64,000 bases of DNA, taken from the NCBI GenBank assembly GCA_002863125.1, contig PKEB01000019.1, positions 62,001-126,000 of the forward strand, given 5' to 3'. The DNA is from Flavobacteriales bacterium. Lineage in GTDB: Bacteria; Bacteroidota; Bacteroidia; Flavobacteriales_D; Sanyastnellaceae. Shown one piece after another: positions 30,418 through 50,134 of this stretch (positions are counted from its first letter, which is position 1; every line of letters begins with the position of its first letter). Position numbers and translations under genes: made by a program. The notes below the pieces were generated by a model, which did not search any database, was not told where the DNA came from, and was given only the letters and a program-made list of their open reading frames with translations.

Positions 30418-30536
30418 GTTTTGGATACTTGTTTTTCACGCAAACTAAGTGGTCGAAGCAGCTTGATTTTGTGCCTGAATTGAGCTCGGATTTGGGGAGA
30501 ATCCATTTATTTTTGATTATTCAGAAAGGAAACTAA

Positions 30537-32759
<2,223 letters not shown>

Positions 32760-32775
32760 TCCGGCGTGCCGATAC

Positions 32776-32805
32776 GAAAAAGGGGCTGTGAGGCCCCTTT
32801 TTTAT
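32776..32805 (+). terminator. Rho-independent terminator after katG
   Basis: The stem AAAGGGGC (32779-32786) pairs with GCCCCTTT (32793-32800), with a 6-base loop, continuing into a T run. It lies 17 bases after the katG stop. Confidence 0.87.
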
Positions 32806-32827
32806 TGGGAGGAACCGTGAACGAATC

Positions 32828-33163
32828 CATACAGATCCACCGACGGATGGAACACTGGACCACCACCAAGTTCACAAAATAGGCACTATGGCTTGGTCCC
32901 TGACGGGGGTGTTATTCACGCGCGACTCACTCCAAACCGAGCGCATTCAAGAGACCATGAACCGGTTGGTGGAGGAATACAATACCCCTGTGGAGGTGCT
33001 TCTATTGGCATGGTTGATGCGCCACCCGGTTGGAATTGTTCCGGTCGTGGGGACGACGCGTTGCGAGCGTTATGCTACGCTGGCGAAAGCCAAGGACCTT
33101 TCCCTTTCGGACGAGGATTGGTTTGCGTTGACAGAAGCCAGCTGGGGGCACAAAGTGCCGTGA
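32828..33163 (+). pseudogene. Remnant of an aldo/keto reductase gene (C-terminal third)
   Basis: The frame from 32828 reads TDGTLDHHQVHKIGTMAWSL, then VEVLLLAWLMRHPVGIVPVV, GTTRCERYATLAKAKDLSLS and ALTEASWGHKVP. This is the C-terminal third of an aldo/keto reductase of the YdhF type, where the intact family has DGTLDxCQxxxIxPMAWSPLGGG before the NADPH-binding segment. The N-terminal two thirds, with the catalytic Asp-Tyr-Lys-His, are missing: upstream is only the katG terminator. Residues are also changed in the normally conserved SPLGGG loop (here SLTGV). An ATG at 32888 could give a 91-residue product, but it would not be an enzyme. The gene is thus a decaying fragment ending next to the convergent cargo gene. 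Confidence 0.75.
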
Positions 33164-34450: not shown

Positions 34451-34547
34451 GGTGAGAGGGGTTTGCGGCTCACCAGGCATTGCAGGTGGGTTGTCGACGC
34501 GTTGTGCACACAAGGTACAGCACACCAATCTACCGGCCTGTTTTTTG

Positions 34548-34725
34548 CTTCGTTTCATTTGATACCGATCGTTCAACTCCGCTCCGTTGAGGATGTCTTT
34601 TTTGATTTTTCGATGCGATTACAGCGGGTCTTGGCCTGCTTGGGCTGGGTGAAGTGCATCAAATAAGCCCAACGACATCCGGATGTAAGCCGCTCAAACA
34701 CTTCGGCTACTTCAGTTGGGCGTGC
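34548..34725 (-). pseudogene. Remnant of a YdeI/OmpD-associated family gene
   Basis: On the minus strand the gap between the GH30 and cargo genes encodes VAEVFERLTSGCRWAYLMHF, then TQPKQAKTRCNRIEKS. After a one-base frame change in an A-rich run (about 34598-34610) it continues KDILNGAELNDRYQM. This pattern (F-x-x-L-x-x-G-x-x-R/W-x-Y-x-x-H/Y-F, then KQ-x-x-TR-x-x-RIEK, then ILNG) is the C-terminus of YdeI/OmpD-associated proteins, linked to bacteriocin protection in the family description. The N-terminal part is absent and stops interrupt upstream, so the gene is dead. Confidence 0.65.
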
Positions 34726-34746
34726 GGTTGTGGTGCGTTGATTGGC

Positions 34747-36204
34747 TTAATAAACCAGCGTGTGCATGGCGTGCGCTTGAATGGACGTTCGAGCCTCCTG
34801 CCCGTCCACAATCAATGTGTAATCCAACGCTTCGTCGGTTCGGTTCATGACCACTGTAACTAAGCCCCCGTCGGGGTTTTGGAACGTTGTGCTTTCGATG
34901 GTACTGCGGCTAGCTGACGTGCTCACACGCAATGCGCCAGGCTCAATAAACCGGGAGAAATGCCCGATGTAGTAGTACGTCGGCGTGAAGATGAGCGAGT
35001 CGTTTTGGGTGTCGGCGTGAATGGGGGCAAAACAGAGGTTCTGTACGTGGTTGGGCCCGCCGGTTTCGTCGAGAAGGATGTTCCAGTCGGTCCACCCCAC
35101 GGTGCCGTTGTTGAAGTCATTTATCATGGAGTTGCCGTAGCGTTCTGCGTTTGACCAACGTTCGTAATGCGCCGCATCAAACCCCTCTTGGCACCCTTCC
35201 GTGAATAAGAGCTGCTTGTCGGGGTAGGCCTCTTTGATGAGTTTGAGGTTCTCGTACCTAGGGTTGCCCCCGGTCCAAGTTTCGTACCAGTGAAAGCCGG
35301 TGCCCCAGGCGTACTTCGCGGCGTCGGGATCGTCGAAAATGGTATTGGCGCGGTGGGTGATGAGGTCGCGGTTGTGGTCCCAAACGACAATCTTCTTGTC
35401 TCCATATCCTGCAGCCTCCATAGTGGGGCCGAGGTTGTTTTTCAAGAAATCGCGCTCCTGTTCAGCGGTGTAAATGCATGATTCCCACCGCTGCGTTGCC
35501 ATGGGTTCGTTCTGGATGGTCACCCCCCAGACGGGAAGCCCTTCCGCCTCGTAAGCTTTGATGAATTTGACGAAGTAATTGGCCCACGTTTGGTAGTATT
35601 CGGGCAACAATGATCCACCGCGCAGCATGTTCTTATTGGTTTTCATGAAGGCTGGCGGGCTCCAAGGGCTCGCGTAAAACACGAAATTGTCTCCAATCAT
35701 GGATGCCGCACGCTTGATCATCGGAATGCGCTTGGCCCGATCGGGTGCGATGTCGAACGTGGTCAGCGCCGAGTCTCCCTCTTCGATGTATGTGTGGCTT
35801 ACGAGTCCGAAGTCGCAGCTGTGGATGCTCGTCCGAACAATGTTGTAGTTGATGCCTCCTTCCCCGAAGTAAGCATTCATGAATTGGGATTGCACAGGCG
35901 CGCTCAATTTTGAAAAAACCTCGGCCGAAGCGTCAGTGATGGCACCACCAATTCCAAGAAACGATTGGAATTTTTTGGTGGGATTCACGAATATCGCGAT
36001 CTCGGTTTCAAGGGGTTGGACAGCTTTCGTGAACTGCAATTTTTCGATTTCTGTTAACCGCAATGAGGTGTTTGCTGCAGTGCATACCACACGGATTCCA
36101 CTGTTAGGGAGGTTAGTGGTTAAACCATCACCTTGTGAGGCCTCTGTTACTGGGCCGCAAGTGCCTAGTGAGAGCAAAAGAGAAAAAAGAGGTACTCTAA
36201 ACAT
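34747..36204 (-). CDS. Glycoside hydrolase family 30 (glucosylceramidase/beta-1,6-glucanase-like)
   Basis: A 485-residue secreted retaining glycosidase. ATG 36204 opens a lipoprotein-like signal (MFRVPLFSLLLSLGTCG; the lipobox is imperfect because Thr precedes Cys). The catalytic (beta/alpha)8 barrel shows FLGIGGAITDASAEVF, NIVRTSIHSCDFG, FYASPWSPPAFMKTN, the acid/base Glu in VTIQNEPMATQRWESC and the nucleophile Glu in LLFTEGCQEG. A C-terminal beta domain follows (LRVSTSASRS, VTVVMNRTDEALDY). Residues match the GH30_1 subfamily, which acts on beta-glucosyl lipids or beta-1,6-glucans. Next in the same direction is the jelly-roll T9SS cargo; the two may act on one glycan. Confidence 0.92.
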   Translation of the reverse strand: MFRVPLFSLLLSLGTCGPVTEASQGDGLTTNLPNSGIRVVCTAANTSLRLTEIEKLQFTKAVQPLETEIAIFVNPTKKFQSFLGIGGAITDASAEVFSKLSAPVQSQFMNAYFGEGGINYNIVRTSIHSCDFGLVSHTYIEEGDSALTTFDIAPDRAKRIPMIKRAASMIGDNFVFYASPWSPPAFMKTNKNMLRGGSLLPEYYQTWANYFVKFIKAYEAEGLPVWGVTIQNEPMATQRWESCIYTAEQERDFLKNNLGPTMEAAGYGDKKIVVWDHNRDLITHRANTIFDDPDAAKYAWGTGFHWYETWTGGNPRYENLKLIKEAYPDKQLLFTEGCQEGFDAAHYERWSNAERYGNSMINDFNNGTVGWTDWNILLDETGGPNHVQNLCFAPIHADTQNDSLIFTPTYYYIGHFSRFIEPGALRVSTSASRSTIESTTFQNPDGGLVTVVMNRTDEALDYTLIVDGQEARTSIQAHAMHTLVY

Positions 36205-36251
36205 TTGATTGTGTTGTTCTTGGAGGGCTTCGATGTGCAATAAATGATTTG

Positions 36252-39200
36252 CTATCTGAAAAGCGATACATGGCCTTGGTGCAATTGTGAGTCCTCACCA
36301 CTTTGAAATTTTAATTTAATTTGCCAGGTGTATAAGCCATCGGGAACGAAGTATTCCTCTGATCCTGCAATTGACTGCCCAATCCAACCTTCTTCAGGGT
36401 CGGTTGATTCCCAAACTATTTCTCCCCAACGATTGAAAATTTGGACGCTGTACTCAGAGATGGCGGCCTTTCCGGTTATGGATGGTTTCCACGAGTCATT
36501 GAATCCGTCATTGTCTGGCGTGAAAGAGTTAGGGACGTAAAAATTCAGGTCATCTTCCAATAATATATTGCGGTATGAGATATCCGTGCAGCCGTATTCA
36601 TTCAGGGCGCTGAGGCTTACATAGTATTCTCCCGGGGCATTAAACAAATAGGATGGGTTGGTTAATGAGCTCGCGCTACCGATCGAAAACTGCCAATTGT
36701 AGCCATCAGCACCAATTGAATTATTGAGGAACTGAACCTCAACTGGAAACCCAAAATCTTGGGAGATTAAATAGTTGAAATCAGAAGTTGGTGAAGGAAA
36801 AATAGAAACGTCGAAGCCCAGAACAGAAGAGCAGGACAAAGCATTTTCGACAGTTAAGGTGACAGTACTTGTAATTACGTTCTCGGAATTGTTTTGGAAC
36901 AAATGTTGAGTGTTCGCCGAATTAGAGCCATTTCCGTCTCCGAAATCCCATGAGAAGAAGTCTCCATTCGAGGTTGTATTCTCGATTGTTACCAGAAGCG
37001 GGGAACAGCCTGAAACCACGTCTGGAGAGATGTTAATGGACGGACTATCATAAACAGTGTGGGTGCTAGAGGTTTCCGAAACGCAATCGGTAAAGACCGT
37101 GGTGCCCGCCAGAGTCACCTCGTATTCACCACCGCTATCATAGATGTGAATGGGGTTAGTTGCGGTAGAGGTCAAACCATCACCAAAATCCCAGAAGACA
37201 GAACTTATGCCATCAGATAGATTTATGAATTGAACGGGTTCGCCAGGGCAAGAGAACGGGGGCTCCGAATCGAAGCTGAGTTCGGCAGTTTCAATTACGG
37301 AAATTTGAATAGAGGTGGTATCAAAGGCACATCCGTTGCCAACAAATTGTTGAACCGTGAAGGATCCGGGACTTTCGAAAGTGTGTAGCGGGCTTGCGTC
37401 AGCACTTAAAAAGCCATCTCCAAAATCATAGGACACAGCGGTTGTTCCTTCCGAGAAATCTGTGAACTGTACTTCGAGGGGAGCACATCCTTGAGCGACA
37501 TCGGCGCTGAAAAACGCAGTGACATTATTTGGTAGAACCGTTATTGTTTGATTCGAGGAATCTACCCCACAATCGTTCGTTGCTAATAGGGTTAAATTGT
37601 AATAGCTTATTAGGCTATCTGTAAAAAATGTGTGGGACCCAGGCTCTTCAGAAGCTGATGTAGTTCCATCACCAAAATCCCATTGCCAACCCTCAGCATT
37701 TCCAGTGGTTAAGTTATTGATTTCAACGACAAAGGGAGAGCAAAACTCATTTAGATTCGTCGCAAAATTAGCCACTGGAACTGGGAGGGCTGTTATCGTA
37801 TCTGTGGCCAAATCTGTTCCGCAGATGTTCGTGACCTCTAAGCTGATAGGGTAGATCACAATATCGTCACCCTGCAGGAAAGTAATGGTGTCAGGAGTTT
37901 GCAGTGTTGACGTGCCCACTCCAAAATCCCACAAGAAGCTCAAATAACTTCCAGAAGAAGTGTTTGCAAACCCGACTTGGACAGGCGCACAGCCATAAGA
38001 ATCACTAATTTCTATAGCTGCAATTGGAGGGTCTATAATCTCATGTTCGGCGTAAGCCGTATCCAAGCAACCGAATTCGCTAGTTGCAATGAGGGTTAAA
38101 TCATGGAACCCGACCTCTGGGTTGAAGTATATAGGAGTAATTTCATTTGATGTTTGTCCGGCTCCGAGTTGCCATGAAAAGGAGCTAGCGTTCAAAGAAT
38201 TATTGATAATGTCGATATAGTCGTTCGAACAACCAATTGGTGCGAGAGTGAATGCTGCTTGAGGAAGCTCGTTAACAATTTGAACAATTTGAGCCGTATC
38301 TGCGCAGCCTGTTGCCGGGCTTGTAAAGGTGTAAAAGACATCAAAAATTCCGGCGCCTATCGATGGGTCAAATTCCCCGGTCATAGGATCAATAATACCC
38401 TCTCCACCCCAAGTTCCACCAGCAGGAGTAGCGGCTAATTCAATAGTAGCGGCATCGTTTGGACAAACACCGGAAACGGGATTAGCTGAGATGGCTGGTA
38501 GCCCTATAACTTCTATCTGCAGATTGTCGGAAGAGTAACAGGTTCCGGCGCCGGCTTCGAGCGTAATTGTATGAATACCTTCGCCGCTTAAGTATGGATT
38601 AAAAAGGCTGAGCTCAGGCACACCTATTCCGGGGCCACTCCAAGTAATGTTTTCAACAGGATAGAACCCTGTTAATTCTAAGAGCCCGGCATTGAGGCAG
38701 ACCGTCTGATCGGACCCAGCATCAGCGAGCTCCAATTCGTCCACGACGATGAGAATAGAATCTTGGCTCGAGCAGCCAAAAGCACTGGTGAATTGATAAA
38801 CAACATCAAAACTTCCTAATTCAAAGGGTGTGAAGACCCCATCGGGCGTTACACCCACGCCACTCCAAAAACCATTTCCTTCAGTACCCGATAGCGGACT
38901 ATATCCATCCAACACCTCTTGTATCTCTTGATTGCAGAGATCGAGGTCCTCACCTGCGTTTACCAAAGGTAGGGGATGCACGGTCACAAACAAATTATCA
39001 CTGCCATTACAACCATTGAAATCAGTTACCGTAAGGACGGCTTCAAGGGATGATTCGGTAAATAGTGTATCCAAAAACACCCCGCCGTTTCCAAACAATT
39101 CGGACGGCGACCAATGAACGTCTACGTATGGGTCGGTACCGCCAATCACCTCTCCTGTGACAAAAGCCTCTTCTCCAAAACAAATTGAAATATCTTCTCC

Positions 39201-42200
39201 GGCACTGACAACAGGCACGCTGAACACTTCAATCAGTGCGGAGTCAGAGCTTGCGCATGAACCGCTTCCAAGAAAGTAAGTGACCTCATAAATACCCTCG
39301 TCCGTCGGAAAGAAAACACCTTCTTCGGTAATACCAATGCCGTCCCAAGATCCCCCCGGTGTTTCAGCTTGGACTTCAACAGGACTGCCATAACCGCAAA
39401 AAGATAAATCTGGACCTGCGTTTGCAGCAGTGAGTTCTACAACGTCAATTGTAACGCTATCTACACCCACACAAGAATTCAGGTCGGTAAAAGTATATAG
39501 CAGGCTGAAACTACCAATCTCAAAAGGCAGGAATCCCCCAGCGTCGGTTATGCCATCCCCTTCCCAAAAACCAACTCCGTTTGTTATTGGCGACGGAAAT
39601 AACGACTCTTCAATGGGCTGATTACAAAATGTTAGAGCATTACCAGCGTCTACCACAGGCAGCGGGTTCACAAATACTTCAAAATAATTTTCGCCAATGC
39701 AGCCATTTACATCCGCGACTTCTAATTGGTAAAAACTGGTGATATTCGGAAATGCCGTTGGAGTACTGAGGTTATTGTTATTTAGCGTTTCAGGAATTGG
39801 AGAACCTATGCCCAAGCAGAAGTCAATGGAGCTCGAAGCCCCATTTATGACTGTGAAGTCATCAAAAACTAATTCCCCGGTGTAGTTATTAGAGAGCGAG
39901 GCTGAAGAGCTGCCCCAACCATTTCCAGCGGAGTCGAACCCTTCGAAGGTGTAACATCCATCTACCAAACAAGCTTGGCTTTCCCCCACACCTCCTTGAT
40001 GAATTATCGTGCCGCCACTAGAAATTACCCATGAAATTTCGTTACTGTTCGATGAATTGGAGACACTTATATCAACCAAATGACAAGGGCTCCAATTATA
40101 TCCTAGATAGGGTTCGGAGCCGCCCGTGATGCCAATATCAATTATAACTGAATCACCGGCGCAGATTATTGGGATATCGGGCTGTGAAATTTCAGGCAAC
40201 TCCCAAACCTCTAGGCTAAACTGCTCTGTACTCGGGCAGCCAGCTGAGGTATAACCGGTCACAGTAAACACAGAGGACACAGAAGGCGATGCTATTGTAG
40301 AATTTGAATTGACGGAAGAGAGAAAAGGGCTTGAAAACCAATTGTATGAATTCGCCCCTGATACCGTTAAAGTGGTTTCCGCACCGTTACAAATTGCAGA
40401 ACCAGCGGATGATTCAATTGACAGGTTTGGGGGAGATTGGACTAGAATTGACTCTGAGTCGTACACGCTACCACAAATATTGGTGGCAGTTAGTTCGACA
40501 TTGAAATCACCTGCAGCGGCCCAAGTCGTATTGCCGGGGTTTTGCTCTGTTGAGTTTACACCTTCACTTCCTGAAATAACCCAGTCATAACTTGTTATAG
40601 GCGTATTACAAGATTCATAATTGGCACCAACATAGGCGTTTTCACCAGCGCAGATATCGGGGAGGCTGTTGATATTGATCTCTGGTAAATCATATGAATC
40701 GATGATATCTGAATGAGTAAAAGTGCCGCATGAGTTAGTCTGAATCAACTCTAATTCAAAGGTCCCTGCGTGGAGAACTTCTATTTCAGGGGTTTCAGAC
40801 CCAGTATTGGTCCCATTAATAAATTGAAAGTGTGTATCCCACCAATTCCAATTGGAGGGGCAATCAATATCTAAATATTGCATATTCCATGAGGTGGATA
40901 AGGCACATATTTCAGGGTTCACTGTAGTGTTGATTGCTGCAAAAGAGAAAGGAACGCAGCCATTCGATTCAGACGTGGCGCCCCAAATAAAATCCGGTGA
41001 AAGGGGCTCCTCAATGCATACTTCTTGCGTAAACACGTTTGGGTCATCCTGATTACAGAAGTTGTATGACGTCAAGGTTACCGTATAAGTTCCAGGTGCA
41101 TTGTATGTGTGAGACTGATTATCATTCGTAGCAGAGAACTGGGTAGCCCCGTCCCCAAAATCCCAAAAGAAGGAGTTTAGTTCAGCGCAATTATTTCCGT
41201 AACCAACGCTAGATGTATTAATGAAATTGACGGCGCTGTTAACGCATTGGGTTGGTTGTTGTGCATAGAAGGACGATGACGGGGGAATAAAAATTATGAT
41301 TGGATTTATTGTTGCCTGAGAAAACGAGCAAACGTTCTCGGCAGTTAAGGTCATTGTGTAAGGGTCATTCGGACACGATGTGGTTGCATATTCATGACAC
41401 ACCTCACTGGGTGGAGGGTGGCTGAACTCTTCATCGGGGGTATTGTCCCCAAAATCAACCGTATAAGTTGTTGACTCGTGATTTAATTCAGCGTTGTTTA
41501 TGTTGAAACAAAGCTCAATAGGAGCACATGCGGTTGTGTTTCCATTTGAGCTAGCCCCGACAGCGGGATTTGTAATATTTGCGACGACAATCACAGTGTC
41601 GTTGCTACAGCCGTTAAGGCCTTCAACGATATAAGTTAAGTCCCACATTCCAAGCCCTTCATAAGTATTCTCCGCATTGAGCGGCGTTGGAGGATTTGTT
41701 GATTCATACGGGTCACTCGAGTCACCCCAATCAATAAAATAATTTAGGTTATTTGACGGATTTGTTCCATCCAAAACACCGATCGAGAATGATTCATTCC
41801 CATCGCATTTTATAAAATTGTATGTTGGCTCAATCAAGTTTATTTCAGGGAACTGCTGAACCGTAATAGTTTCTTGGGAGGAGTTAGCACACCCATTTTG
41901 GTCAGTGACTGTTAAAACCACATCAAAATACTCCAACGAGTTGCCGAATGCTTCGTAGAAGTGTATTTGGTTGGCGCTGTTTGTTGCTGTTGTGCCGTCA
42001 CCAAAATCCCAAGCGAAGCTATTTTCCCCTCCAGCAAGATCAGCAGAGAATTCTATTGGTACTGAAGAACAAAGCCCATCGGGGGCAAATGTGAATCCAG
42101 CATCGGGTAAGTCATAGACGAATACGGTTACTTCGTCAGTATCGTAGCAGGTGCTATCACCCTCAATATAAATGGTATATGAAGTTGTTTCGATGGGGCT

Positions 42201-42419
42201 GACAAAAGGATTTTGAATTGTATCAAGATCGTTGTTCCAGCCCCAGGAAAAAGCTCCCTGATCAGGAGTGTTTATCAAGGCGGGACTTCCGCCGATTTGT
42301 GCGCTATCTCCTTCACAAATAAACAAATCTGGTCCAGCGTCAACAATGCACTGAGCGCTACTTGAATAAACACCAGTAGTGCAGAACAAGACTAATGCGA
42401 ATCGATATAAAACCCTCAT
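36252..42419 (-). CDS. Giant PKD-repeat surface protein with type B T9SS sorting domain
   Basis: A 2055-residue protein. ATG 42419 opens a signal peptide (MRVLYRFALVLFCTTG, then SSSAQC). The body is a chain of Ig-like and PKD modules. At least seven PKD units carry the W/Y-DFGDG motif (for example AWDFGDGTTATN, FWDFGDGATQFS, WQWDFGDGTTSAS). A central block of Ig-like repeats has the pattern VDAGxDLxxC...GSWDGIGI/GFWSGVGV with paired Cys. The C-terminal 95 residues form a type B domain (FYVPNSFTPDNDGFNDSWKP, IFNRWGEIVWES). Such proteins are adhesins or matrix components carried out by the T9SS. It follows the cupredoxin cargo gene by 37 bases and probably shares its transcript. Its DNA is visibly A+T-richer than the housekeeping genes in the window. 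Confidence 0.88.
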   Translation of the reverse strand: MRVLYRFALVLFCTTGVYSSSAQCIVDAGPDLFICEGDSAQIGGSPALINTPDQGAFSWGWNNDLDTIQNPFVSPIETTSYTIYIEGDSTCYDTDEVTVFVYDLPDAGFTFAPDGLCSSVPIEFSADLAGGENSFAWDFGDGTTATNSANQIHFYEAFGNSLEYFDVVLTVTDQNGCANSSQETITVQQFPEINLIEPTYNFIKCDGNESFSIGVLDGTNPSNNLNYFIDWGDSSDPYESTNPPTPLNAENTYEGLGMWDLTYIVEGLNGCSNDTVIVVANITNPAVGASSNGNTTACAPIELCFNINNAELNHESTTYTVDFGDNTPDEEFSHPPPSEVCHEYATTSCPNDPYTMTLTAENVCSFSQATINPIIIFIPPSSSFYAQQPTQCVNSAVNFINTSSVGYGNNCAELNSFFWDFGDGATQFSATNDNQSHTYNAPGTYTVTLTSYNFCNQDDPNVFTQEVCIEEPLSPDFIWGATSESNGCVPFSFAAINTTVNPEICALSTSWNMQYLDIDCPSNWNWWDTHFQFINGTNTGSETPEIEVLHAGTFELELIQTNSCGTFTHSDIIDSYDLPEININSLPDICAGENAYVGANYESCNTPITSYDWVISGSEGVNSTEQNPGNTTWAAAGDFNVELTATNICGSVYDSESILVQSPPNLSIESSAGSAICNGAETTLTVSGANSYNWFSSPFLSSVNSNSTIASPSVSSVFTVTGYTSAGCPSTEQFSLEVWELPEISQPDIPIICAGDSVIIDIGITGGSEPYLGYNWSPCHLVDISVSNSSNSNEISWVISSGGTIIHQGGVGESQACLVDGCYTFEGFDSAGNGWGSSSASLSNNYTGELVFDDFTVINGASSSIDFCLGIGSPIPETLNNNNLSTPTAFPNITSFYQLEVADVNGCIGENYFEVFVNPLPVVDAGNALTFCNQPIEESLFPSPITNGVGFWEGDGITDAGGFLPFEIGSFSLLYTFTDLNSCVGVDSVTIDVVELTAANAGPDLSFCGYGSPVEVQAETPGGSWDGIGITEEGVFFPTDEGIYEVTYFLGSGSCASSDSALIEVFSVPVVSAGEDISICFGEEAFVTGEVIGGTDPYVDVHWSPSELFGNGGVFLDTLFTESSLEAVLTVTDFNGCNGSDNLFVTVHPLPLVNAGEDLDLCNQEIQEVLDGYSPLSGTEGNGFWSGVGVTPDGVFTPFELGSFDVVYQFTSAFGCSSQDSILIVVDELELADAGSDQTVCLNAGLLELTGFYPVENITWSGPGIGVPELSLFNPYLSGEGIHTITLEAGAGTCYSSDNLQIEVIGLPAISANPVSGVCPNDAATIELAATPAGGTWGGEGIIDPMTGEFDPSIGAGIFDVFYTFTSPATGCADTAQIVQIVNELPQAAFTLAPIGCSNDYIDIINNSLNASSFSWQLGAGQTSNEITPIYFNPEVGFHDLTLIATSEFGCLDTAYAEHEIIDPPIAAIEISDSYGCAPVQVGFANTSSGSYLSFLWDFGVGTSTLQTPDTITFLQGDDIVIYPISLEVTNICGTDLATDTITALPVPVANFATNLNEFCSPFVVEINNLTTGNAEGWQWDFGDGTTSASEEPGSHTFFTDSLISYYNLTLLATNDCGVDSSNQTITVLPNNVTAFFSADVAQGCAPLEVQFTDFSEGTTAVSYDFGDGFLSADASPLHTFESPGSFTVQQFVGNGCAFDTTSIQISVIETAELSFDSEPPFSCPGEPVQFINLSDGISSVFWDFGDGLTSTATNPIHIYDSGGEYEVTLAGTTVFTDCVSETSSTHTVYDSPSINISPDVVSGCSPLLVTIENTTSNGDFFSWDFGDGNGSNSANTQHLFQNNSENVITSTVTLTVENALSCSSVLGFDVSIFPSPTSDFNYLISQDFGFPVEVQFLNNSIGADGYNWQFSIGSASSLTNPSYLFNAPGEYYVSLSALNEYGCTDISYRNILLEDDLNFYVPNSFTPDNDGFNDSWKPSITGKAAISEYSVQIFNRWGEIVWESTDPEEGWIGQSIAGSEEYFVPDGLYTWQIKLKFQSGEDSQLHQGHVSLFR

Positions 42420-42456
42420 CTTTTGTTGTTTATAAGCCCGAGTGCAAACCGACAGA

Positions 42457-43623
42457 TTAATGAAGTACAAGGGGCTGAACCTGGCTCGAGCCAATTTCAG
42501 ATTCTACAATAATGAAATAGACACCGGATGGCATGGAACAATGGAAGGCAAACTCTCTCTCAGTATTTCTCAACAAGCAATCTGATTCTTCGCCGAGGGC
42601 ATTGAATAATCTTACAGAGAAGGGGCGCTTAACGCCATCGACAGCAAAACTCGCCTTGCAAGGATTCGGGTAAACAACAGCTCCTAATTTCGAGCTGCCG
42701 TGACCAGGCTGAGGAATAGTATTCCAATAAACAGGGACATTCACGGAAACTACACAACCATTTGAATCAATTGCCTCAACTAAATAGTTGCCCTCCGACA
42801 GGAAATTTGGGTCAGCGACTTCGCCCGCCTCATCATACCATGTGATTTCAATATTACCGGTTCCACCGGAGGCGGTTGCGGAACCAACGCCTAATGATTC
42901 ATCGGAAGCCTCTGTGGATGTGGCGAATAGTTCAATTTCGTCAGGGATTTGAGGCATAGAAACCTCGAGGGTGTCAGAGCAGAGCCCCTCAGACATTTGA
43001 ACGATCACATGAAAGCTTCCAGGGCCGAGGAGAAACTCCCCGACTGAGTTGGAATACGCTACTGAATCAATACTAAATATTAAGCTTGAGGATGAGCTGG
43101 TTGTTATTTGCAAGACCCCTAATTCTCCAAAACAGAGAGCGGGAAAAACATCAAACCCTAATTCCCCCAAATAGCAGCAACTTTCATCATCAAATTCAGC
43201 GAGCTCATTATAATTATCGGCTTCGGGATCCATACATCCACCATCGCCAACAATAACACTTCCTACCATACCTGCTTGGGCATGACCAAAATTTGAGCAG
43301 TCATAATGATAGACACCGGGAATGTTGAATGAGTGATAGCCGATGCAAGCACCATCAGAATTACCTGCGACAGAGGGAAAAAAGAATTCTTCTGGGTTAT
43401 TAAAGGATTCTCCGGAAATAGAACTCGCCTCCCCGTTAACATTGTGTAGTCCTTGAAGATTTATCCAAGACAGGGTATCTCCGGTGTCAATAAAGACAGT
43501 GGAGGGCGAGTACTGAAACATTGTTGTTTCAATTGTGACACCACTGACGCCACAAGGATTTAGCCCCTGGGATATCATAAATAAAGCGCAGTGCAAAAGG
43601 GCGAAAACAAGAACTATACGCAT
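42457..43623 (-). CDS. Cupredoxin (plastocyanin-like) T9SS cargo
   Basis: A 388-residue secreted protein. After the signal peptide (MRIVLVFALLHCALFMISQG) a cupredoxin domain spans about residues 25-130. The copper ligands are visible as the His in LQGLHNVNG, and Cys-His-Met in YHYDCSNFGHAQAGMVGSV, the type I copper arrangement. A short Asp/Cys-rich linker (CMDPEADNYNELAEF) and two Ig-like domains follow. The C-terminus is a type A sorting domain (VVYPNPCKASFAV, VRLFNALGEES, PSGVYFIIV). It should be a surface-exposed copper protein, possibly an electron carrier or copper scavenger. It lies upstream of the giant PKD protein gene in the same orientation. Start at ATG 43623. Confidence 0.85.
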   Translation of the reverse strand: MRIVLVFALLHCALFMISQGLNPCGVSGVTIETTMFQYSPSTVFIDTGDTLSWINLQGLHNVNGEASSISGESFNNPEEFFFPSVAGNSDGACIGYHSFNIPGVYHYDCSNFGHAQAGMVGSVIVGDGGCMDPEADNYNELAEFDDESCCYLGELGFDVFPALCFGELGVLQITTSSSSSLIFSIDSVAYSNSVGEFLLGPGSFHVIVQMSEGLCSDTLEVSMPQIPDEIELFATSTEASDESLGVGSATASGGTGNIEITWYDEAGEVADPNFLSEGNYLVEAIDSNGCVVSVNVPVYWNTIPQPGHGSSKLGAVVYPNPCKASFAVDGVKRPFSVRLFNALGEESDCLLRNTEREFAFHCSMPSGVYFIIVESEIGSSQVQPLVLH

Positions 43624-43730
43624 CTTACATATTTGGTTACCAGCAAATTAACTAAAAAAAACATTGGAGCGACTTTAAGAAATAGGCAACAATAGCTTTT
43701 TCCTAGGACTTCCAAGTCATTTGCAAGACA

Positions 43731-43760
43731 GAAAAAAGCCTCGCTTTTGGCGAGGCTTTC
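43731..43760 (-). terminator. Rho-independent terminator after the small lipoprotein gene
   Basis: The stem AAAGCCTCG (43735-43743) pairs with CGAGGCTTT (43751-43759), with a 7-base loop. On the minus strand it is followed by a T run (complement of the A run at 43732-43737). It is about 30 bases past the stop of the gene at 43789-44322. Confidence 0.82.
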
Positions 43761-43788
43761 AGAGCAAAGTCCTTTTGGCTCGAGATTT

Positions 43789-44322
43789 TTATTGCTCACT
43801 GCGGGCGGCACGTTGTGCAATGCGGGCAGCGACGTCAGGGTTTTCAGCTAGAAGCGCACCAAACGTGGCTGTCCAGTCAGCATAATGAGCGAAGTTTCTA
43901 ATTTCACCTGAATCATTGAACTCCATAGTTCCATATGCCATTAATTTTTGGGTTGCATCGCCCATAGTCATATTCCACTGACCATAGTAGCGGACGCTAC
44001 CATCTAAAGACATAGTCAACGTGTCGATTCCAGGCAGATAGACTGCATTTACAAGTTCAGCATCCATGAGAGCTGTCATCATCTTCCATTGTTGCATGGA
44101 CTCGTCTTTCGTTCGGTCCTCTTCTTGAAATCCGGTTCCTACCTCGATAAAATCGTCGGCAAAAAGATCAGGGTTAATTGTTTTGCTCTGGAACCCATCG
44201 AACATTGCTTTCATGGAAGCGAGATTTGCATCATAATTTGGGTTTTGCTCTTCTGAGCCGGAATTGCATGCGAAAATGACGCAAAGCGAGAGAGCAGCGA
44301 AAAAGAAGGGATAGTTTTTCAT
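43789..44322 (-). CDS. Small lipoprotein with NTF2/SnoaL-like fold (tentative)
   Basis: A 177-residue protein. ATG 44322 opens a lipoprotein signal (MKNYPFFFAALSLCVIFAC, lipobox IFAC, Cys 19). The rest has an initial helix (DANLASMKAMFDGFQSKT), a DLFADDFIEVGTGFQ segment, several beta strands and a closing helix rich in Ala/Arg. The helix-strand order and the YGTMEFNDSGEIRNF strand resemble SnoaL/NTF2-like proteins often seen as small secreted Bacteroidota lipoproteins. The open frame continues upstream but crosses a tRNA-derived repeat and a terminator, so the 44322 start is far more likely. Function unknown. Confidence 0.65.
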   Translation of the reverse strand: MKNYPFFFAALSLCVIFACNSGSEEQNPNYDANLASMKAMFDGFQSKTINPDLFADDFIEVGTGFQEEDRTKDESMQQWKMMTALMDAELVNAVYLPGIDTLTMSLDGSVRYYGQWNMTMGDATQKLMAYGTMEFNDSGEIRNFAHYADWTATFGALLAENPDVAARIAQRAARSEQ

Positions 44323-44368
44323 CGAAATTAGAGGTTGTTGAGAGTGGAAAGCTAAGTCGTTTTTGCCC

Positions 44369-44401
44369 AAAAAAAAACAAGCCTCGAAGAATCGAGACTT
44401 G
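44369..44401 (-). terminator. Rho-independent terminator after the tRNA-Asn 3'-end copy
   Basis: On the minus strand a 10-bp stem with one mismatch (44378-44387 with 44392-44401) is followed by a T run of nine (complement of the A run at 44369-44377). It sits 9 bases beyond the tRNA-Asn 3'-end repeat at 44411. It is probably the original tRNA terminator, displaced by an insertion. Confidence 0.7.
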
Positions 44402-44410
44402 TCTTGTTTG

Positions 44411-44428
44411 GCTCCCCCACCTGGACTT
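44411..44428 (-). repeat. 18-bp copy of the tRNA-Asn 3' end (putative attachment site)
   Basis: The plus-strand sequence GCTCCCCCACCTGGACTT is identical to positions 48078-48095, the 3' end of the intact tRNA-Asn gene. The match covers the 3' acceptor strand and 3' T-stem and then stops: the following bases (ATCTCGAACC) are not a tRNA continuation. The spacing between copies is 3667 bases. Such partial tRNA duplications normally mark the distal attachment site of an element integrated at a tRNA 3' end. Confidence 0.7.
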
Positions 44429-44581
44429 ATCTCGAACCAAGCGCATGAGGGATTTGCGAAACTGTACGAATTACGTGGATTGCTTGGCATAAGTAGAGTT
44501 GATGGAGCTAATGTCTAACACCGATGCGACAAGGAGACTTATCCCAATCCGTCACTAAACCAGAACAAAAAAGAAGGAGTT

Positions 44582-44905
44582 ACGTCACACACAAAAGGAT
44601 CGCTGAACCACACCACGCGGGACACAAAGGAGTTCTTGAACGCAGGCGTCAAAAATGGGCACCCACGAATCGAGGCGGCGCTTTTGGATCTGTTCGAGAC
44701 TAACAAAGCTAGTTACCTGAATGCAATCACCAAGCTGCTACCATTTATTACGCCCAAAGCGAGTGAGATGCATTTGCTTACGCCCGATACGCTATCCAAA
44801 ATGCCATCTTGGTTTGATGACATACCAATAGAGTACGCAGCACCGAGAAAAAAACGAAGGCAAAAAACCCCAATTAAAGCTGTACATTGGTCGACGAACA
44901 TTTAA
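44582..44905 (+). CDS. Small phage-like protein, possibly with ACG start
   Basis: An open frame that extends upstream of a TTG at 44636 to a better N-terminus. The residues SHTKGSLNHTTRDTKEFLNA, then VKNGHPRIEAALLDLFETNK, resemble small helical proteins of phage packaging or tail regions (pattern KGxxNKTTxEIREx). A strong AAGAAGGAG ribosome-binding-like sequence at 44570-44578 lies 3 bases before an ACG codon at 44582, where an ATG would be expected; this is either a rare start or a mutated one. From ACG the product is 107 residues, ending KKRRQKTPIKAVHWSTNI. It lies 9 bases before the tail-fibre-like gene. The family is not certain. Confidence 0.5.
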   Translation, partial: TSHTKGSLNHTTRDTKEFLNAGVKNGHPRIEAALLDLFETNKASYLNAITKLLPFITPKASEMHLLTPDTLSKMPSWFDDIPIEYAAPRKKRRQKTPIKAVHWSTNI

Positions 44906-44914
44906 ACTAAAGCC

Positions 44915-47887
44915 ATGAAGACAAGAAAACTTATTGCGCTTTTCTGCGCGAGTTTTGTGCTAACCACGATTACCTCTGGACAGGACACACTGAAGTTTGA
45001 ACGGACAACAACCATCCAAACGCTGGAGAACGGGAACATAAACATTGCAACAAACCCGATCGTGCTTCAGCAGACGCTGGATAGTATTTATACGCTGCAC
45101 GCGAGGATGGCTGATAGCCTGCAATCCGGAACGGTTACAGGGACGTCCAAGTTTTTACGCTTACTCGAGACCTTGGAAACAGGCGGGGACGTGTTAGTTG
45201 GCGGCGATTTAGAAGTCATAGGTTCTGCTACGATTGGCGGAACCACTTTCGCTAACGGCGGCCTTGAGACAACAAACCTCGAAACCGACAACATAACCGT
45301 GTCTGAAAATGGAAGTTTTGGACAGGATGTGTCAGTAGGCGGCACGCTGACTGTTACCGGTGCGACGACGTTAAATTCGACCTTGAGCGCTCAAACTTCC
45401 ACGCTTTCCTCTGCGACGATTACTGGCGACGCTTCTATTGGAGGAAATACATCGATGACTGGTGCGCTTGACGTTGATGGCTCGTCGGAGTTAGACGGCT
45501 TAAATGTGGACGGCGCGACAACATTAGATGCATTTACAGCTGACGGAAATGCGGACATCAATGGCAACGCGGATGTGAGCGGCACCCTCAATGCAGGGGC
45601 GTCGACGCTTTCCTCTGCGACAGTCACGGGTAATACTACCGTCGGTGGAGACTTTACGGTTGATGGTTCAGCCTCTTTAAGTAGCTTGCAAATTAATGTT
45701 GCCTCCCCAACCGCATTACCTGCTGACGCTGACAATGCCACGGATCAAAAGAATTCCCACGCCTTCTCAGTTGATGGTGGTTACCAGGGCATTTATGTAA
45801 ATCTTAAAACAACAGACGATGACACTGAGGTCGATGACGACCAACACTTTCTCACTTTCGCAAAGGATAACGAAGCTATTCTAGGTACGATTGAAGGGAA
45901 TCAGAGTGTGTCATCTATTGCTGATTTACTTTCTAACATAGGCTCTGCGCTCGCTAGTTCTGACTCATCTGCATCTGGAGGAGGGGCATCGTGCTATTGG
46001 TCGTTTGACGCATGGGAACTGAATCCAAATTCACCTCATGCAATAAATGACGCACATCATAATAAATACCTACTCTTTTTTGTTGAAGGGGCGCCGTTGA
46101 ACGTATTCAGCACAAGCGCAGACATCACCTGGTTTGGCACTTATGGTTACGAGGGCGCTCCAATCAGCTCATCAGCAGTCAAAGACAATGGAGATTGTAA
46201 GACGGGTGGTGCGAATTGCTACCAAGCTGGATATTTTCAAGTTTATGATACGCTTCAAACACATCAGTTTATTACATCAACTACTAATGAATTTCCAGTC
46301 TTCTCCAATTACGATGTTAGCATACAGTATTTAGAACAATTCAAGTCGACCCGAAGTGCAAATTCGTGGGGGCATAGTGCAATGGAGTTCACTTGGTCGC
46401 TTTTTGGTGGAAACGGTTCAAAGCAATTTAAAACTACCGATGACCCTGCCCTAGGATACCACATGGCTTGGCATTTTGCGCACTGGGGAAATTGGGCAAC
46501 GGGCAATGACAATCGCAATCCTGATCCCCTGCCTAACTTCATTGGTTCAGATGAGTCAGTAACTACATCTAAGCATTATTATCTGTCTGGAACGAATTGC
46601 CCAGATCCCGAAGGACAGGAGGGTAATGAGGGCATAGATGGTGCAAACGCGACCCAGGAAGCGGAAGCACAGGCTGTAGCTGACAATGTTGATGCAAATG
46701 ATATAGGCATTGGAGCGGGTGATGTTATAGATGCAGTAGATGAACTGATCATGATTTTATCATGGTGCAAGTCCATTCAAGAATTGATCTTTGTTTTTTT
46801 TCCACCGGGAACGCCATTTGACTTCTGGGATATTTTCGATGCGATTTTTGGAGTGTTCACAGAGTCATGGGGGGTAGGCATGAACTACTGGGCAGCAAGC
46901 CAAGCCGTTGGGGTTGCTTTTGCCTCCGGTGGAGCAGATTATGCGGAATGGCTCGAGCGCGCATATCCAAATGAGGTGCTCTTGGTAGGAGATGTAGTCG
47001 GCGTGAAAGCAGGGAGAATCTCCAAGACTTTTATCAATGCTGATGAATTCATGGTTGTCTCAGGACAGCCAATCATTCTTGGAAATACACCTCCTGCTGG
47101 CCGTGAAAATTTTTACGAGAAGGTTGCTTTTCTGGGTCAGGTTCCAGTCAAAGTTATTGGTCCAGTCAAGGAAGGCGACTATATACTATTCAGTGGAGAA
47201 GCCGACGGTGTTGCGATAGCTAAAGACAAGTCAGAAATCCGTTTGGACGACTACAAACATATTATTGGTGTTGCATGGGAGGGGACTGAGTCAGTTGCTG
47301 GAGGTCTACCAACGTTTGTAAATGTTGCCATTGGGTTGAATCATAATGAATTAGCTGAGGAAGTGAAAAAGCTGAAAAACGCCCTCCTCGAGGTGCAGTC
47401 AGTTTTGGTTGAGGCTGGTTTTGAGTTGGACCTCGCTTTTGATTCTGAGGAATCTTCTACGGCTAACAATCAGAATCAACTTTCTGGAAAGCCAGGCCAA
47501 TCGCAATCAATTAATACCAACATGGCGCATTCAATGCTTGACGATTTGAATATTAATGAGGCGATGCTTCTGTCAGGACTTTCTGAAAATGAGGAAGCGT
47601 TTTTGCAAGGTATCATTAAAGACGGGCTATCCACAAACGTACAAGAGCGTCATCAATTCGCTCGAATTGCAGATAAAATTGTCAGGGAACGTTTTGGCAC
47701 TGGCTTCATTGATAATGAAGACTTTAGATTCATTCACACCATTATGACCGATCCGAATCGATCCAATGAGATTTCAAAAGAATTGGGTTCGATCACGGCT
47801 GCTATTGAAGCCCTCTTGATGGAAGTGAATCCAAATCCTATGGAATTTGGCAATGAGCCAAATAAAACATTGACGAGGAAGAAATAG
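44915..47887 (+). CDS. Large secreted tail-fibre-like protein with putative G2-type self-cleaving domain
   Basis: A 990-residue protein with a signal peptide (MKTRKLIALFCASFVLTTIT, then SGQ). Residues about 70-265 are short strand repeats of the form T-x-x-G-x-x-x-x-x-x-S/T-L, such as TLSSATITGDASIGG and TLSSATVTGNTTVGG, as in phage tail fibres built on triple beta-helices. A middle domain (about 265-640) contains Trp and paired Cys but is unrecognised. Around residue 672 GGADYAEWLERAYPNE, then GDVVGVKAGRISK and QPIILGN, resembles the peptidase G2 (tail-spike autocleavage) domain. The C-terminal about 180 residues are helical. The combination of a Sec signal and phage-fibre architecture is odd. 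It lies within the repeat-bounded segment and is followed by a strong terminator. Confidence 0.7.
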   Translation: MKTRKLIALFCASFVLTTITSGQDTLKFERTTTIQTLENGNINIATNPIVLQQTLDSIYTLHARMADSLQSGTVTGTSKFLRLLETLETGGDVLVGGDLEVIGSATIGGTTFANGGLETTNLETDNITVSENGSFGQDVSVGGTLTVTGATTLNSTLSAQTSTLSSATITGDASIGGNTSMTGALDVDGSSELDGLNVDGATTLDAFTADGNADINGNADVSGTLNAGASTLSSATVTGNTTVGGDFTVDGSASLSSLQINVASPTALPADADNATDQKNSHAFSVDGGYQGIYVNLKTTDDDTEVDDDQHFLTFAKDNEAILGTIEGNQSVSSIADLLSNIGSALASSDSSASGGGASCYWSFDAWELNPNSPHAINDAHHNKYLLFFVEGAPLNVFSTSADITWFGTYGYEGAPISSSAVKDNGDCKTGGANCYQAGYFQVYDTLQTHQFITSTTNEFPVFSNYDVSIQYLEQFKSTRSANSWGHSAMEFTWSLFGGNGSKQFKTTDDPALGYHMAWHFAHWGNWATGNDNRNPDPLPNFIGSDESVTTSKHYYLSGTNCPDPEGQEGNEGIDGANATQEAEAQAVADNVDANDIGIGAGDVIDAVDELIMILSWCKSIQELIFVFFPPGTPFDFWDIFDAIFGVFTESWGVGMNYWAASQAVGVAFASGGADYAEWLERAYPNEVLLVGDVVGVKAGRISKTFINADEFMVVSGQPIILGNTPPAGRENFYEKVAFLGQVPVKVIGPVKEGDYILFSGEADGVAIAKDKSEIRLDDYKHIIGVAWEGTESVAGGLPTFVNVAIGLNHNELAEEVKKLKNALLEVQSVLVEAGFELDLAFDSEESSTANNQNQLSGKPGQSQSINTNMAHSMLDDLNINEAMLLSGLSENEEAFLQGIIKDGLSTNVQERHQFARIADKIVRERFGTGFIDNEDFRFIHTIMTDPNRSNEISKELGSITAAIEALLMEVNPNPMEFGNEPNKTLTRKK

Positions 47888-47912
47888 GACTTTTGCTGGC
47901 ATATCAATTTTC

Positions 47913-47946
47913 CGGGAGATTGCAGTGATGCGGTCTCCCGTTTTTG
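47913..47946 (+). terminator. Rho-independent terminator after the tail-fibre-like gene
   Basis: The stem CGGGAGA (47913-47919) pairs with TCTCCCG (47934-47940), with a 14-base loop, followed by five T. It begins about 25 bases after the stop codon. Confidence 0.8.
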
Positions 47947-48037
47947 GTTTTATCCGCCCGGAAAAAAATATCTAACCGATGATTTGAACCTTGCGGTTGA
48001 GCCGATGCCCAACAGTATCAAACCTCTTGAAAAGGTA

Positions 48038-48066
48038 CAAAAAAACCGCGCAGTTACGCGCGGTTT
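48038..48066 (-). terminator. Rho-independent terminator of the tRNA-Asn transcript
   Basis: The stem AACCGCGC (48044-48051) pairs with GCGCGGTT (48058-48065), with a 6-base loop. On the minus strand it is followed by a T run. It lies 13 bases beyond the tRNA 3' end and differs in sequence from the terminator next to the repeat copy at 44369-44401. Confidence 0.82.
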
Positions 48067-48077
48067 TCGTTTTCCTT

Positions 48078-48095
48078 GCTCCCCCACCTGGACTT
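48078..48095 (-). repeat. 18-bp direct repeat within the 3' end of tRNA-Asn (putative attachment site)
   Basis: This is the intact-tRNA copy of the 18-base repeat described at 44411-44428. Together the two copies bracket the phage-like small gene and the tail-fibre-like gene. No integrase gene lies between them. Confidence 0.7.
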
Positions 48096-48152
48096 GAACC
48101 AGGGACCCTCTGATTAACAGTCAGATGCTCTAACCAACTGAGCTATGGAGGA
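48079..48152 (-). tRNA. tRNA-Asn (GTT)
   Basis: On the minus strand a 74-base cloverleaf begins TCCTCCATAGCTC. It has the acceptor stem TCCTCCA/TGGGGGA, a D arm AGCTC-AGTTGGTTAGA-GC, the anticodon arm TCTGA-CTGTTAA-TCAGA with anticodon GTT, a T arm with loop TTCAAGT, and discriminator G. CCA is not encoded. The 3' end is repeated 3.67 kb away, marking this gene as an integration site. Confidence 0.96.
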
Positions 48153-48283
48153 ATATTCGGACGGCAAAGATAATCCTTTCTTTTCGTTCGTGGACGAATT
48201 GCGAAGATTTTTTGCGTCTGCGGCCTATACGGCGGTACCTGTAAGAATGTTGCATCATCCCGGATGACTCGATGAAGAACCGG

Positions 48284-48291
48284 TACCTTTG
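48284..48291 (+). promoter_or_regulatory. Putative -7 promoter element of the PfkB kinase gene
   Basis: TACCTTTG matches TAnnTTTG and stands 18 bases before the ATG at 48310. It is part of the 12-mer TACCTTTGCGGC that also occurs at the promoter of the aldehyde dehydrogenase gene (20163-20174). A TTTG box at the proper distance was not found. Confidence 0.5.
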
Positions 48292-48309
48292 CGGCAGATT
48301 TCTAGAAAC

Positions 48310-49236
48310 ATGAGTTTAGTAACCGTTGGTACCGTGGCCTTTGATGCCATCCAAACCCCATTCGCTTCTTCTGGTAAAATCGTAGGTGGCGCCGCCTCTT
48401 ACATCGGCCTCAGCGCGAGTCAATTTGCGAAGGAGCAGCACATCATCTCGGTCATTGGGGACGACTTTCCCCAATCCTTCATCACTGAACTCGAGTCGCG
48501 CGGGGTCAACACAGAAGGCCTCGAATGCCGCAAAGGCGAAAAGAGCTTCTTCTGGGAAGGGAAGTACCACATGGACATGAATTCCCGGGACACCCTTACC
48601 ACCGACTTGAATGTGTTGGCGGATTTCAAGCCGGTCGTTCCAGAATCCGCAAAGCAGTCGGATTACGTCATGCTTGGCAACCTGGACCCCAATGTGCAGG
48701 CCAGCGTGTTGGATCAGATGGCTAAGCGCCCCAAGCTCGTCGTGTTGGACACTATGAATTTTTGGATGGACATCGCACTGGAGCCACTAAAAGCGGTATT
48801 GCAGCGCATCGATGTACTCACGATCAACGATGAAGAAGCGCGCCAGCTTTCAGGCGAATACTCCCTAGTGAAAGCCGCCCAAAAAATCCTCGCTATGGGC
48901 CCATCCACCCTGGTCATCAAAAAGGGCGAACACGGTGCACTGCTCTTCAATCAGGATGAGGTTTTCTTTGCTCCCGCGCTGCCGCTGGAGGAGGTGCTGG
49001 ATCCTACCGGTGCTGGCGACTCTTTTGCCGGAGGTTTCATTGGCTACTTGGCGCACACCGACGACACGTCGTTTGCGAACATGAAGCGTGCGGTGGTCTT
49101 GGGTTCAGCATTGGCGTCATTTACGTGCGAGCAATTCGGCACCGAGCGCCTACTGAGTTTGACCCAAGGGGAGCTGGACGAGCGCATTCAGCGGTTCGTC
49201 GACCTCGTCGATTTCGACATTGTATTGAAGGGCTAA
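48310..49236 (+). CDS. PfkB-family sugar/nucleoside kinase
   Basis: A 308-residue cytoplasmic kinase of the ribokinase/PfkB family. ATG 48310 follows the promoter element. Visible features are VTVGTVAFDAIQTPF, KIVGGAASYIGLSAS near the N-terminus (substrate lid region), TINDEEARQLSGEY, LVIKKGEHGALLF, and the ATP/anion-hole motif DPTGAGDSFAGGFIGYL with the catalytic Asp near 237. The sugar or nucleoside phosphorylated is not clear; the N-terminus is similar to adenosine-kinase-like members often annotated simply as PfkB. The gene ends 7 bases before the convergent M23 peptidase gene. Confidence 0.9.
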   Translation: MSLVTVGTVAFDAIQTPFASSGKIVGGAASYIGLSASQFAKEQHIISVIGDDFPQSFITELESRGVNTEGLECRKGEKSFFWEGKYHMDMNSRDTLTTDLNVLADFKPVVPESAKQSDYVMLGNLDPNVQASVLDQMAKRPKLVVLDTMNFWMDIALEPLKAVLQRIDVLTINDEEARQLSGEYSLVKAAQKILAMGPSTLVIKKGEHGALLFNQDEVFFAPALPLEEVLDPTGAGDSFAGGFIGYLAHTDDTSFANMKRAVVLGSALASFTCEQFGTERLLSLTQGELDERIQRFVDLVDFDIVLKG

Positions 49237-49243
49237 GCCTCGA

Positions 49244-50134
49244 TTATTCGGGCCGCTCAGGGGCGTATTCCGGGAGCCATTGCACCGGGTCGAGCGCTGT
49301 TCCATCCACCCACCATTCGAAGTGGGAATGTGGACCTGTAGAATGGGTTCCTGTTCCACCCAAAACCGCAATGGGGTCACCGGCTTGAACCCGGTCGCCC
49401 TCCTCGACGAGCAAGCTTTGGTTGTGCTTGTACACGGAAATGCGGTTGCCAGGGTGCTGAATGTTGACCACGTATCCGCCGTCTGAAGTGTATGAGGCGA
49501 GCATCACGGTACCATCGTCCACCGCGTGAATCACGGATCCAACTGGCGCAACAAAATCGACCCCGAAATGCCCGATGGCCGGGTCGAACTCCGAGGAGAT
49601 TTCACCTTGCAGTGGCGCGAATGGAATACTCTTTGAGGCCCACTCATTGGATTGCGCACGTTGCAAAGCAAACCGGTCTTCATCTTCAACGCGCTCGCGC
49701 AATGCCAAATCTTCTTCGGTCAACCCCCAATCGTTCAACCCCTCTTCTGTGTCGGCCATGGCTGCGCTGTCCAGCACCGCGGGCTCGACATCATCCACCA
49801 CCACCTGGCCCGTCAGCACTGTGCGCAGGTCGTTCATGTAGCGCTCTTGAACTGCCAATGCGTGGAGAGCACTGTCCGCGCGCAATTCCGCATCGATGGC
49901 ACGCATGCGGCTAGCCTCGCTGACGTAACCCGGCACGATGTATTCGCGCAGCGGCGTCCATGCGACGATGAGGTAAGTGAGCCCGGCAATGGTGACCAAC
50001 AGCGCTCCGGATGTAGCGGCCAATCCCCACCGGTTGACCGTCATCTGCCACCGTTCCTTGTAGGATTGTTCCTCGTGCAGGACCAAGCGGTAGCGCTTGA
50101 ACCAGCGTTCGCGAAAGTCGTTGAGTTGTGCCAT
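49244..50134 (-). CDS. M23-family metallopeptidase (peptidoglycan endopeptidase-like)
   Basis: A 296-residue protein. ATG 50134 (MAQLNDFRERWFKRYRLVLH) is chosen; a longer open frame upstream crosses into the start region of the divergent PorW/SprE gene. A cytoplasmic segment (about 30 residues) precedes one transmembrane helix (about 42-64), then a coiled region and a C-terminal LytM/M23 domain. Zinc ligands appear as HFGVDF and the HxH in TGPHSHFEWW. Typical members cut peptide cross-bridges in peptidoglycan during growth or division, or act as activators of amidases. The domain order (TM-coil-M23) is common in Bacteroidota. Confidence 0.9.
   Translation of the reverse strand: MAQLNDFRERWFKRYRLVLHEEQSYKERWQMTVNRWGLAATSGALLVTIAGLTYLIVAWTPLREYIVPGYVSEASRMRAIDAELRADSALHALAVQERYMNDLRTVLTGQVVVDDVEPAVLDSAAMADTEEGLNDWGLTEEDLALRERVEDEDRFALQRAQSNEWASKSIPFAPLQGEISSEFDPAIGHFGVDFVAPVGSVIHAVDDGTVMLASYTSDGGYVVNIQHPGNRISVYKHNQSLLVEEGDRVQAGDPIAVLGGTGTHSTGPHSHFEWWVDGTALDPVQWLPEYAPERPE

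Follow-up and report, generated by a model that had tools for sequence, protein, structure and literature searches.

Elements without integration and transfer genes that retain attL and attR are classed as cis-mobilizable elements (CIMEs) (PMC5704250), and pseudo-SCC (staphylococcal cassette chromosome) elements, found at staphylococcal orfX, lack ccr (PMC6243372). CALIN arrays (clusters of attC sites lacking integron-integrases) rely on an integrase located elsewhere (PMC11389934), and recombinases with an attachment site inside their own gene have, for the tyrosine type, been described as exclusively archaeal (PMC8371274). The locus described here is a small insert at a tRNA-Asn gene of a marine Flavobacteriales bacterium, and its largest gene codes for a secreted, fibre-like protein. 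It lies within a 64 kb stretch of contig PKEB01000019.1 (G000:C3:62001-126000; hereafter, the window), part of a 2.27-Mb assembly (G000) that is 98.7% complete, and the congeneric comparison set comprised 22 genomes. Taken as a whole, the evidence makes it probable that the insert is an integrase-less derivative of a large-serine-recombinase element targeting the tRNA-Asn 3' end.

Insertion into the 3' end of tRNA-Asn

The intact tRNA-Asn (GTT) gene that served as the integration target is on the minus strand at 48078..48152 (ARAGORN; Rfam RF00005), and in the Rfam scan the tRNA alone passed threshold. Its 3' end, the 18-bp sequence GCTCCCCCACCTGGACTT (48078..48095, minus strand), recurs exactly at 44411..44428 on the same strand, and with up to three mismatches allowed these are the only two matches in the window. 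Shuffled controls gave a mean of 0.06 matches, and two matches in none of 100 shuffles. Each copy is followed on the minus strand by a hairpin and T-run terminator (44405-44374 and 48060-48047), the two differing in sequence, so that both the repeat and its separate terminators are as reported in the first-pass annotation of this DNA.

That annotation had read the repeat as the footprint of integration into a tRNA 3' end and had proposed looking for an empty site in related genomes, and such a site is present in G013, which has a single tRNA 3' end. When the window was compared with the G013 locus by BLASTN, the block at 43773-44428 (95.6%) was found to meet the block at 48078-49258 (89.2%) with an overlap of exactly 18 bp. 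Immediately downstream of tRNA-Asn, G013 has the NTF2-like gene that in G000 flanks the insert. Since the two blocks join in this way, the insert is 3,667 bp long, counting one copy of the repeat. It is bounded by a rebuilt, intact tRNA-Asn gene and a direct 18-bp repeat, the hallmarks of tRNA-3'-end integration, and the element has inserted into the 3' end of tRNA-Asn. The present 3' end of the gene is that supplied by the cassette, and the copy at 44411 is the old end, displaced to the far boundary of the insert. The host-side terminator next to the displaced copy is of a type found after tRNA-Asn in G013, G018, G005 and G010 and is probably the old tRNA-Asn terminator, while the cassette-borne terminator at the other end now serves the tRNA gene.

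The first-pass annotation had also named an alternative in which no insertion occurred and the 44411 repeat is what is left of a decayed tandem tRNA-Asn gene. The presence of only the 3' part of the tRNA would suit such decay, but the explanation is contradicted by the G013 empty site, on which ground it was rejected, and the DNA adjoining the repeat is not tRNA sequence but an element end common to eight genomes; we give it virtually no weight.

Serine recombinase sequences at the cassette ends

Between the repeat copies, the listing of open reading frames (ORFs) contains a 990-aa ORF (44915-47887) and one small ORF, with no recombinase ORF. The earlier statement that the insert has no integrase holds in that sense, but its right end retains what is left of a large serine recombinase gene, the last ~28 codons in decayed form, at 47960..48043 on the plus strand. 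The last ~80 bp before the terminator in the cassettes of G000 and G018 align to the 3' end of a recombinase gene found at the same place in G005. A profile of recombinase C-termini, built from the recombinases of other loci with G005 and G072 left out, matched the G005 copy (E 3.5e-26), a remnant in G072 (2e-8) and the ends of the G018 (7e-5) and G000 (0.0014) cassettes, all four on the expected strand and in the expected frame, with every other frame giving E >0.1. Codon-position counts in the G000 remnant revealed no coding constraint, as expected of a decayed gene. The remnant in G072, a member of another genus, is a recombinase C-terminus located at tRNA-Asn near a contig end (8888-9086 of locus L140, from G072:C38), and is likely the scar of a past integration. 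A regulator similar to the LytTR-type response regulator of the window (29615-30364) adjoins the G072 remnant; in the window, the stretch between the regulator gene and the insert (30364-44411) varies among relatives (cf. G015).

The G005 enzyme is a 508-aa large serine recombinase with the Resolvase, Recombinase and zinc-ribbon domains typical of the class (PF00239, E 7e-31; PF07508; PF13408), and it also matches the CcrB, CcrC and CcrA models, though with scores that fall far short of the cut-offs. Its gene points towards the tRNA and the protein ends in ..APPPGLEPGTL, with the stop codon within tRNA-Asn. Related recombinases from other genera and several families show a similar arrangement, the stop codon lying inside a tRNA or tmRNA gene of the opposite strand at 20 of 30 loci (tRNA genes for Asn, Phe, Lys, Arg, Met, Leu, His and Pro, as well as tmRNA). 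Because the 3' ends of these genes run into tRNA or tmRNA genes, the last residues of such recombinases are encoded by the target after integration. Far-end direct repeats were initially found for none of the larger recombinase elements of other genera, and with more DNA convincingly for one, G140, where the recombinase end overlapping tRNA-Met has an 18-bp copy 30.5 kb away.

At the opposite end of the cassette, conservation extends ~75 bp past the displaced repeat among G000, G016, G005, G001, G009, G011 and the metagenome-assembled genome (MAG) UBA1993. Read in the recombinase frame, this left end translates as GLISNQVYEGFAKLYELRAFMEYDGN and similar sequences, and amino-acid identity is higher in that frame (0.75) than in the other two (0.61-0.63), a value reached by none of 1000 column shuffles; the evidence is modest, given that related sequences with clustered changes are being compared. 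The left end (44429..44518, plus strand) is accordingly annotated as the predicted in-frame C-terminal tail of the recombinase in its circular form (GLISNQAHEGFAKLYELRGLLGISRVDGANV followed by a stop codon). Recombinase traces remain at one end of the cassette, and probably at both.

The simplest reading of these ends would place attP within the 3' end of the recombinase gene, so that integration swaps the last codons. The ancestral element would have carried a large serine recombinase with the tRNA-Asn 3' end as its target. In the circular state, the recombinase gene would read on into what is now the left end of the cassette, and recombination between attP and the tRNA 3' end would rebuild the tRNA and provide it with a new terminator. 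In G005, which still has the gene, it runs into the tRNA, and the last codons of the recombinase are tRNA sequence. The G000 cassette looks like such an element minus most of its recombinase gene, the bulk of which would have been lost with both ends retained.

Integration at tRNA 3' ends is usually the work of tyrosine recombinases, the type of enzyme that the first-pass annotation had in mind, and a link to such enzymes might be seen in the small gene upstream of the fibre gene (44582..44905, plus strand). In small elements of the genus (G021:C96 and G005:C30), its relatives lie next to a tyrosine recombinase and an excisionase-like gene, and it would tie the cassette to those elements. Even so, a tyrosine recombinase is an improbable mover, as the enzyme at tRNA-Asn in G005 is of the serine type, and so are the remnants in G000, G018 and G072. 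The search for tyrosine recombinases elsewhere in the genome, suggested in the same annotation, did return two, but both are XerC/XerD-like by sequence and context, and no mobile tyrosine integrase was found; a host tyrosine integrase was rejected as the mover for that reason, and a host serine recombinase because the genome has none. The small gene itself had been called phage-like, a label not supported by PHROGs, in which it has no match, and it has no significant family in Pfam or NCBIfam; it is better described as a decayed mobile-element gene. Its homologues start with ATG, while G000 has ACG at 44582 and is open from a TTG at 44636, and the G016 copy has a stop within the frame, so the gene is probably dead in both. 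The two small elements of G021 and G005 also carry large secreted proteins, and the 5,515-bp G005 contig has a recombinase that runs off both ends and lacks its middle part, a layout that a circle or tandem interrupted by a short gap would show.

Cargo, sister cassettes and possible movement

The left-end junction GGTTCGAGATAAGTCC (at most one mismatch) occurs once each in 7 of the 22 congeneric genomes, with no occurrence in a reversed control, and the MAG UBA1993 brings the number of genomes carrying it to eight. The congeners with the junction are MAGs under the name Flavobacteriales bacterium, and a pattern search of 84,980 species retrieved seven stretches containing it, all from Flavobacteriales MAGs.

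The gene pfkB is present in 20 of the 22 congeneric genomes and is adjoined by tRNA-Asn wherever the contig extends far enough, and beyond tRNA-Asn the gene content differs almost genome by genome. A related fibre is found there in G018, a DUF285-repeat protein in G012, a secreted protein with a Fib_succ_major domain (along with the serine recombinase) in G005, and other genes in G014 and G015. G016 has an FG-GAP repeat protein, and G017 apparently one of the same type, judging by inspection of its last codons. Provided that two contigs with an exact 139-bp shared end belong together, the G016 cassette is 2.26 kb long and codes for a 538-aa FG-GAP protein, with no integrase. Judging by locus lengths, 14 of 20 genomes have a contig end no more than 900 bp from pfkB on its tRNA side (in one of them inside pfkB), while on the other side no contig end lies within 1.5 kb; such breaks would be expected from strain variation or from repeats at the site.

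A second locus became evident in G011, where a single contig (G011:C202; 4156-6372 of locus L170) contains an integrase-less cassette of ~2.2 kb with a DUF285-type repeat protein as cargo and TrhO and a DoxX-like gene as neighbours (all by inspection). In G014 and G018, TrhO is without an insert and the following gene looks like DoxX (names by inspection). The left-end junction also lies beside a TrhO-like gene in G007 (G007:C161), and G009 (G009:C178) has a tRNA-like end beside TrhO from which the ATA of the junction is absent. The cassette of the window belongs to a family in which common ends enclose at least three types of protein (fibre, FG-GAP and DUF285), spread over two loci, and the fibre is only one among several interchangeable cargoes. 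The site at tRNA-Asn looks like a spot where secreted surface-type proteins are swapped.

The fibre-like protein of the window (990 aa; 44915..47887, plus strand) begins with a Sec-type leader, MKTRKLIALFCASFVLTTITSGQ, recognized by inspection. This is followed by N-terminal repeats with matches to phage proteins, including a tail fibre, and a weak match to bactofilin, and by a C-terminal Peptidase_G2-like domain of a family that is widespread in relatives. Among 14 homologues of the domain, 11 match Peptidase_G2 (PF11962) at E ≤1 (best 5.9e-7), while the domain of the window alone gives 0.009, below the cut-off. In a PDB profile search, a phage pre-neck appendage protein and the chaperone domain of Dpo31 were matched weakly (E 0.0008-0.02), and PDB chain 3gqh begins at an Asp that aligns to Asp675 of the fibre. 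A D-x-A-E motif at the cut position is invariant in the 14 homologues (D11, A13 and E14). From this invariance, the profile alignment and its position, D675-Y-A-E678 (46937..46948, plus strand) is predicted to be a self-cleavage motif with the cut before Asp675, and the domain appears to be a diverged Peptidase_G2 self-cleavage domain. The residues of the motif presumably act in cleavage, as in phi29 gp12. By prediction, the fibre would be exported, assemble as a trimer and be cut between Ala674 and Asp675, releasing the chaperone-like domain at its C-terminus. The possibility of a self-cleaving fibre had been raised before; what the Peptidase_G2 matches of the homologues add is support at the sequence level. 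A second gene with the same type of domain and similar repeats is found at a contig end in the same genome (G000:C3:163929-165581).

Over the N-terminal part, the fibre genes of G000 and G018 are 94.5-96.9% identical in DNA sequence, compared with 72% for pfkB, and the C-terminal parts of the proteins share 33% identity. The near-identity of the N-terminal DNA relative to pfkB argues for a recent exchange of at least that module. The terminator of the fibre gene (47913..47940, plus strand) is also common to the G018 cassette.

The suggestion that the insert is a non-autonomous cassette, or the remnant of a larger element, is supported. As to how such cassettes spread, movement in trans by a sister recombinase appears the likeliest route, its main rival being homologous exchange or decay. 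It may well be, with the balance about even, that this cassette and its sisters are moved in trans by a related recombinase of co-resident or incoming elements, tRNA-Asn serving as a slot for secreted surface-type proteins. Occurrence at two loci favours site-specific movement in trans, while the decayed remnants and the mosaic fibre favour exchange via homologous recombination. In its full form, the rival supposes an immobile remnant that integrated once and decayed in place, with the cargo differences arising as strains exchanged DNA by homologous recombination, for which conserved flanks, terminator repeats and intragenic repeats served. This is a credible alternative, as the recombinase remnant and the small gene are both decayed, the fibres are mosaic, and pfkB, the tRNA and the terminator repeats supply the homology. 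It does not sit easily with the junctions at the TrhO-like locus of G011 and G007, nor with three dissimilar cargoes sharing common ends, two of them in compact cassettes (G011 and G016) with both ends present.

Several observations weigh against a mobile, recombinase-derived cassette. Its own genome has no serine recombinase, and with the tyrosine pair being XerC/XerD-like, self-movement is impossible there unless an assembly gap hides the enzyme. An intact recombinase at tRNA-Asn was found in only 1 of the 22 genomes (G005), and the assemblies of the relatives are drafts, MAGs for the most part. The genus yielded neither a contiguous autonomous element with both ends nor a circular copy, the two ends in G005 being on separate contigs, which is why the attachment site within the recombinase gene is a step that we infer. 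No excised circles were found, viral contigs were searched without result, and the junction pattern had no match in them. The decay of the small gene and recombinase remnant in G000 suits a dead remnant equally well.

The family makes the movement of integrase-less cassettes in trans testable, since its ends and an empty site are defined, its cargo is interchangeable and there is a candidate for the helper recombinase. It could help account for the variation in secreted and surface proteins, likely contact points with phages and particles, among abundant marine Bacteroidota, and it draws attention to bacterial serine recombinases with genes that overlap, at their 3' ends, the tRNA or tmRNA genes they target.

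Comparison with described systems

Like a CIME, the cassette has lost its integration gene, keeps both attachment ends, here at a tRNA 3' end, and a related incoming element could move it. It differs in deriving from a serine-recombinase element and in being 2-4 kb in size, its cargo amounting essentially to a single secreted protein. The insert showed no conjugation gene, and although it has the CIME features tested, we have not filed it as a CIME, which would take descent from a conjugative or mobilizable element. Pseudo-SCC elements are also without a recombinase, at a site used by serine-recombinase elements, but that site is orfX/rlmH of staphylococci, whereas the cassette occupies a tRNA-Asn gene of Flavobacteriales, has a one-gene cargo and ends in the remnants of a recombinase gene.

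Resemblance to integron cassettes and CALIN lies in the small, one-gene cassette with an attachment site, dependent on an integrase elsewhere. The differences are that no integron integrase is involved, that the ends found consist of tRNA 3' ends and the end of a recombinase gene (no attC-aimed search was made), and that insertion is into a tRNA gene, which receives a 3' end and a terminator from each cassette. A one-slot, integron-like system might tentatively be envisaged for marine Flavobacteriales, in which single-gene surface-protein cassettes are exchanged at tRNA-Asn and one secondary locus by a trans-acting serine recombinase whose gene end is the attachment site, every cassette bringing a new tRNA terminator.

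The C-terminal domain of the fibre is like the Peptidase_G2, or phi29-type appendage, domain (PF11962; PDB 3gqh) in sequence and in the invariant D-x-A-E at the cut position, but the fibre is a secreted bacterial protein and not a virion protein, and its self-cleavage is predicted.

The literature searched gave nothing on serine integrases or recombinases with tRNA in Bacteroidetes or Flavobacteriales, and no description of an attachment site inside its own gene for the serine recombinase class. The nearest parallel is with the suicidal integrases of archaea, which share an attachment site within the recombinase gene that is altered by integration, as would be the case in the cassette family. 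Here the enzyme is a bacterial serine recombinase, and the G005 gene beside tRNA-Asn is open over 508 aa rather than destroyed. With the C-terminal tail alone swapped and the catalytic part intact, it would represent a milder case of the same arrangement.

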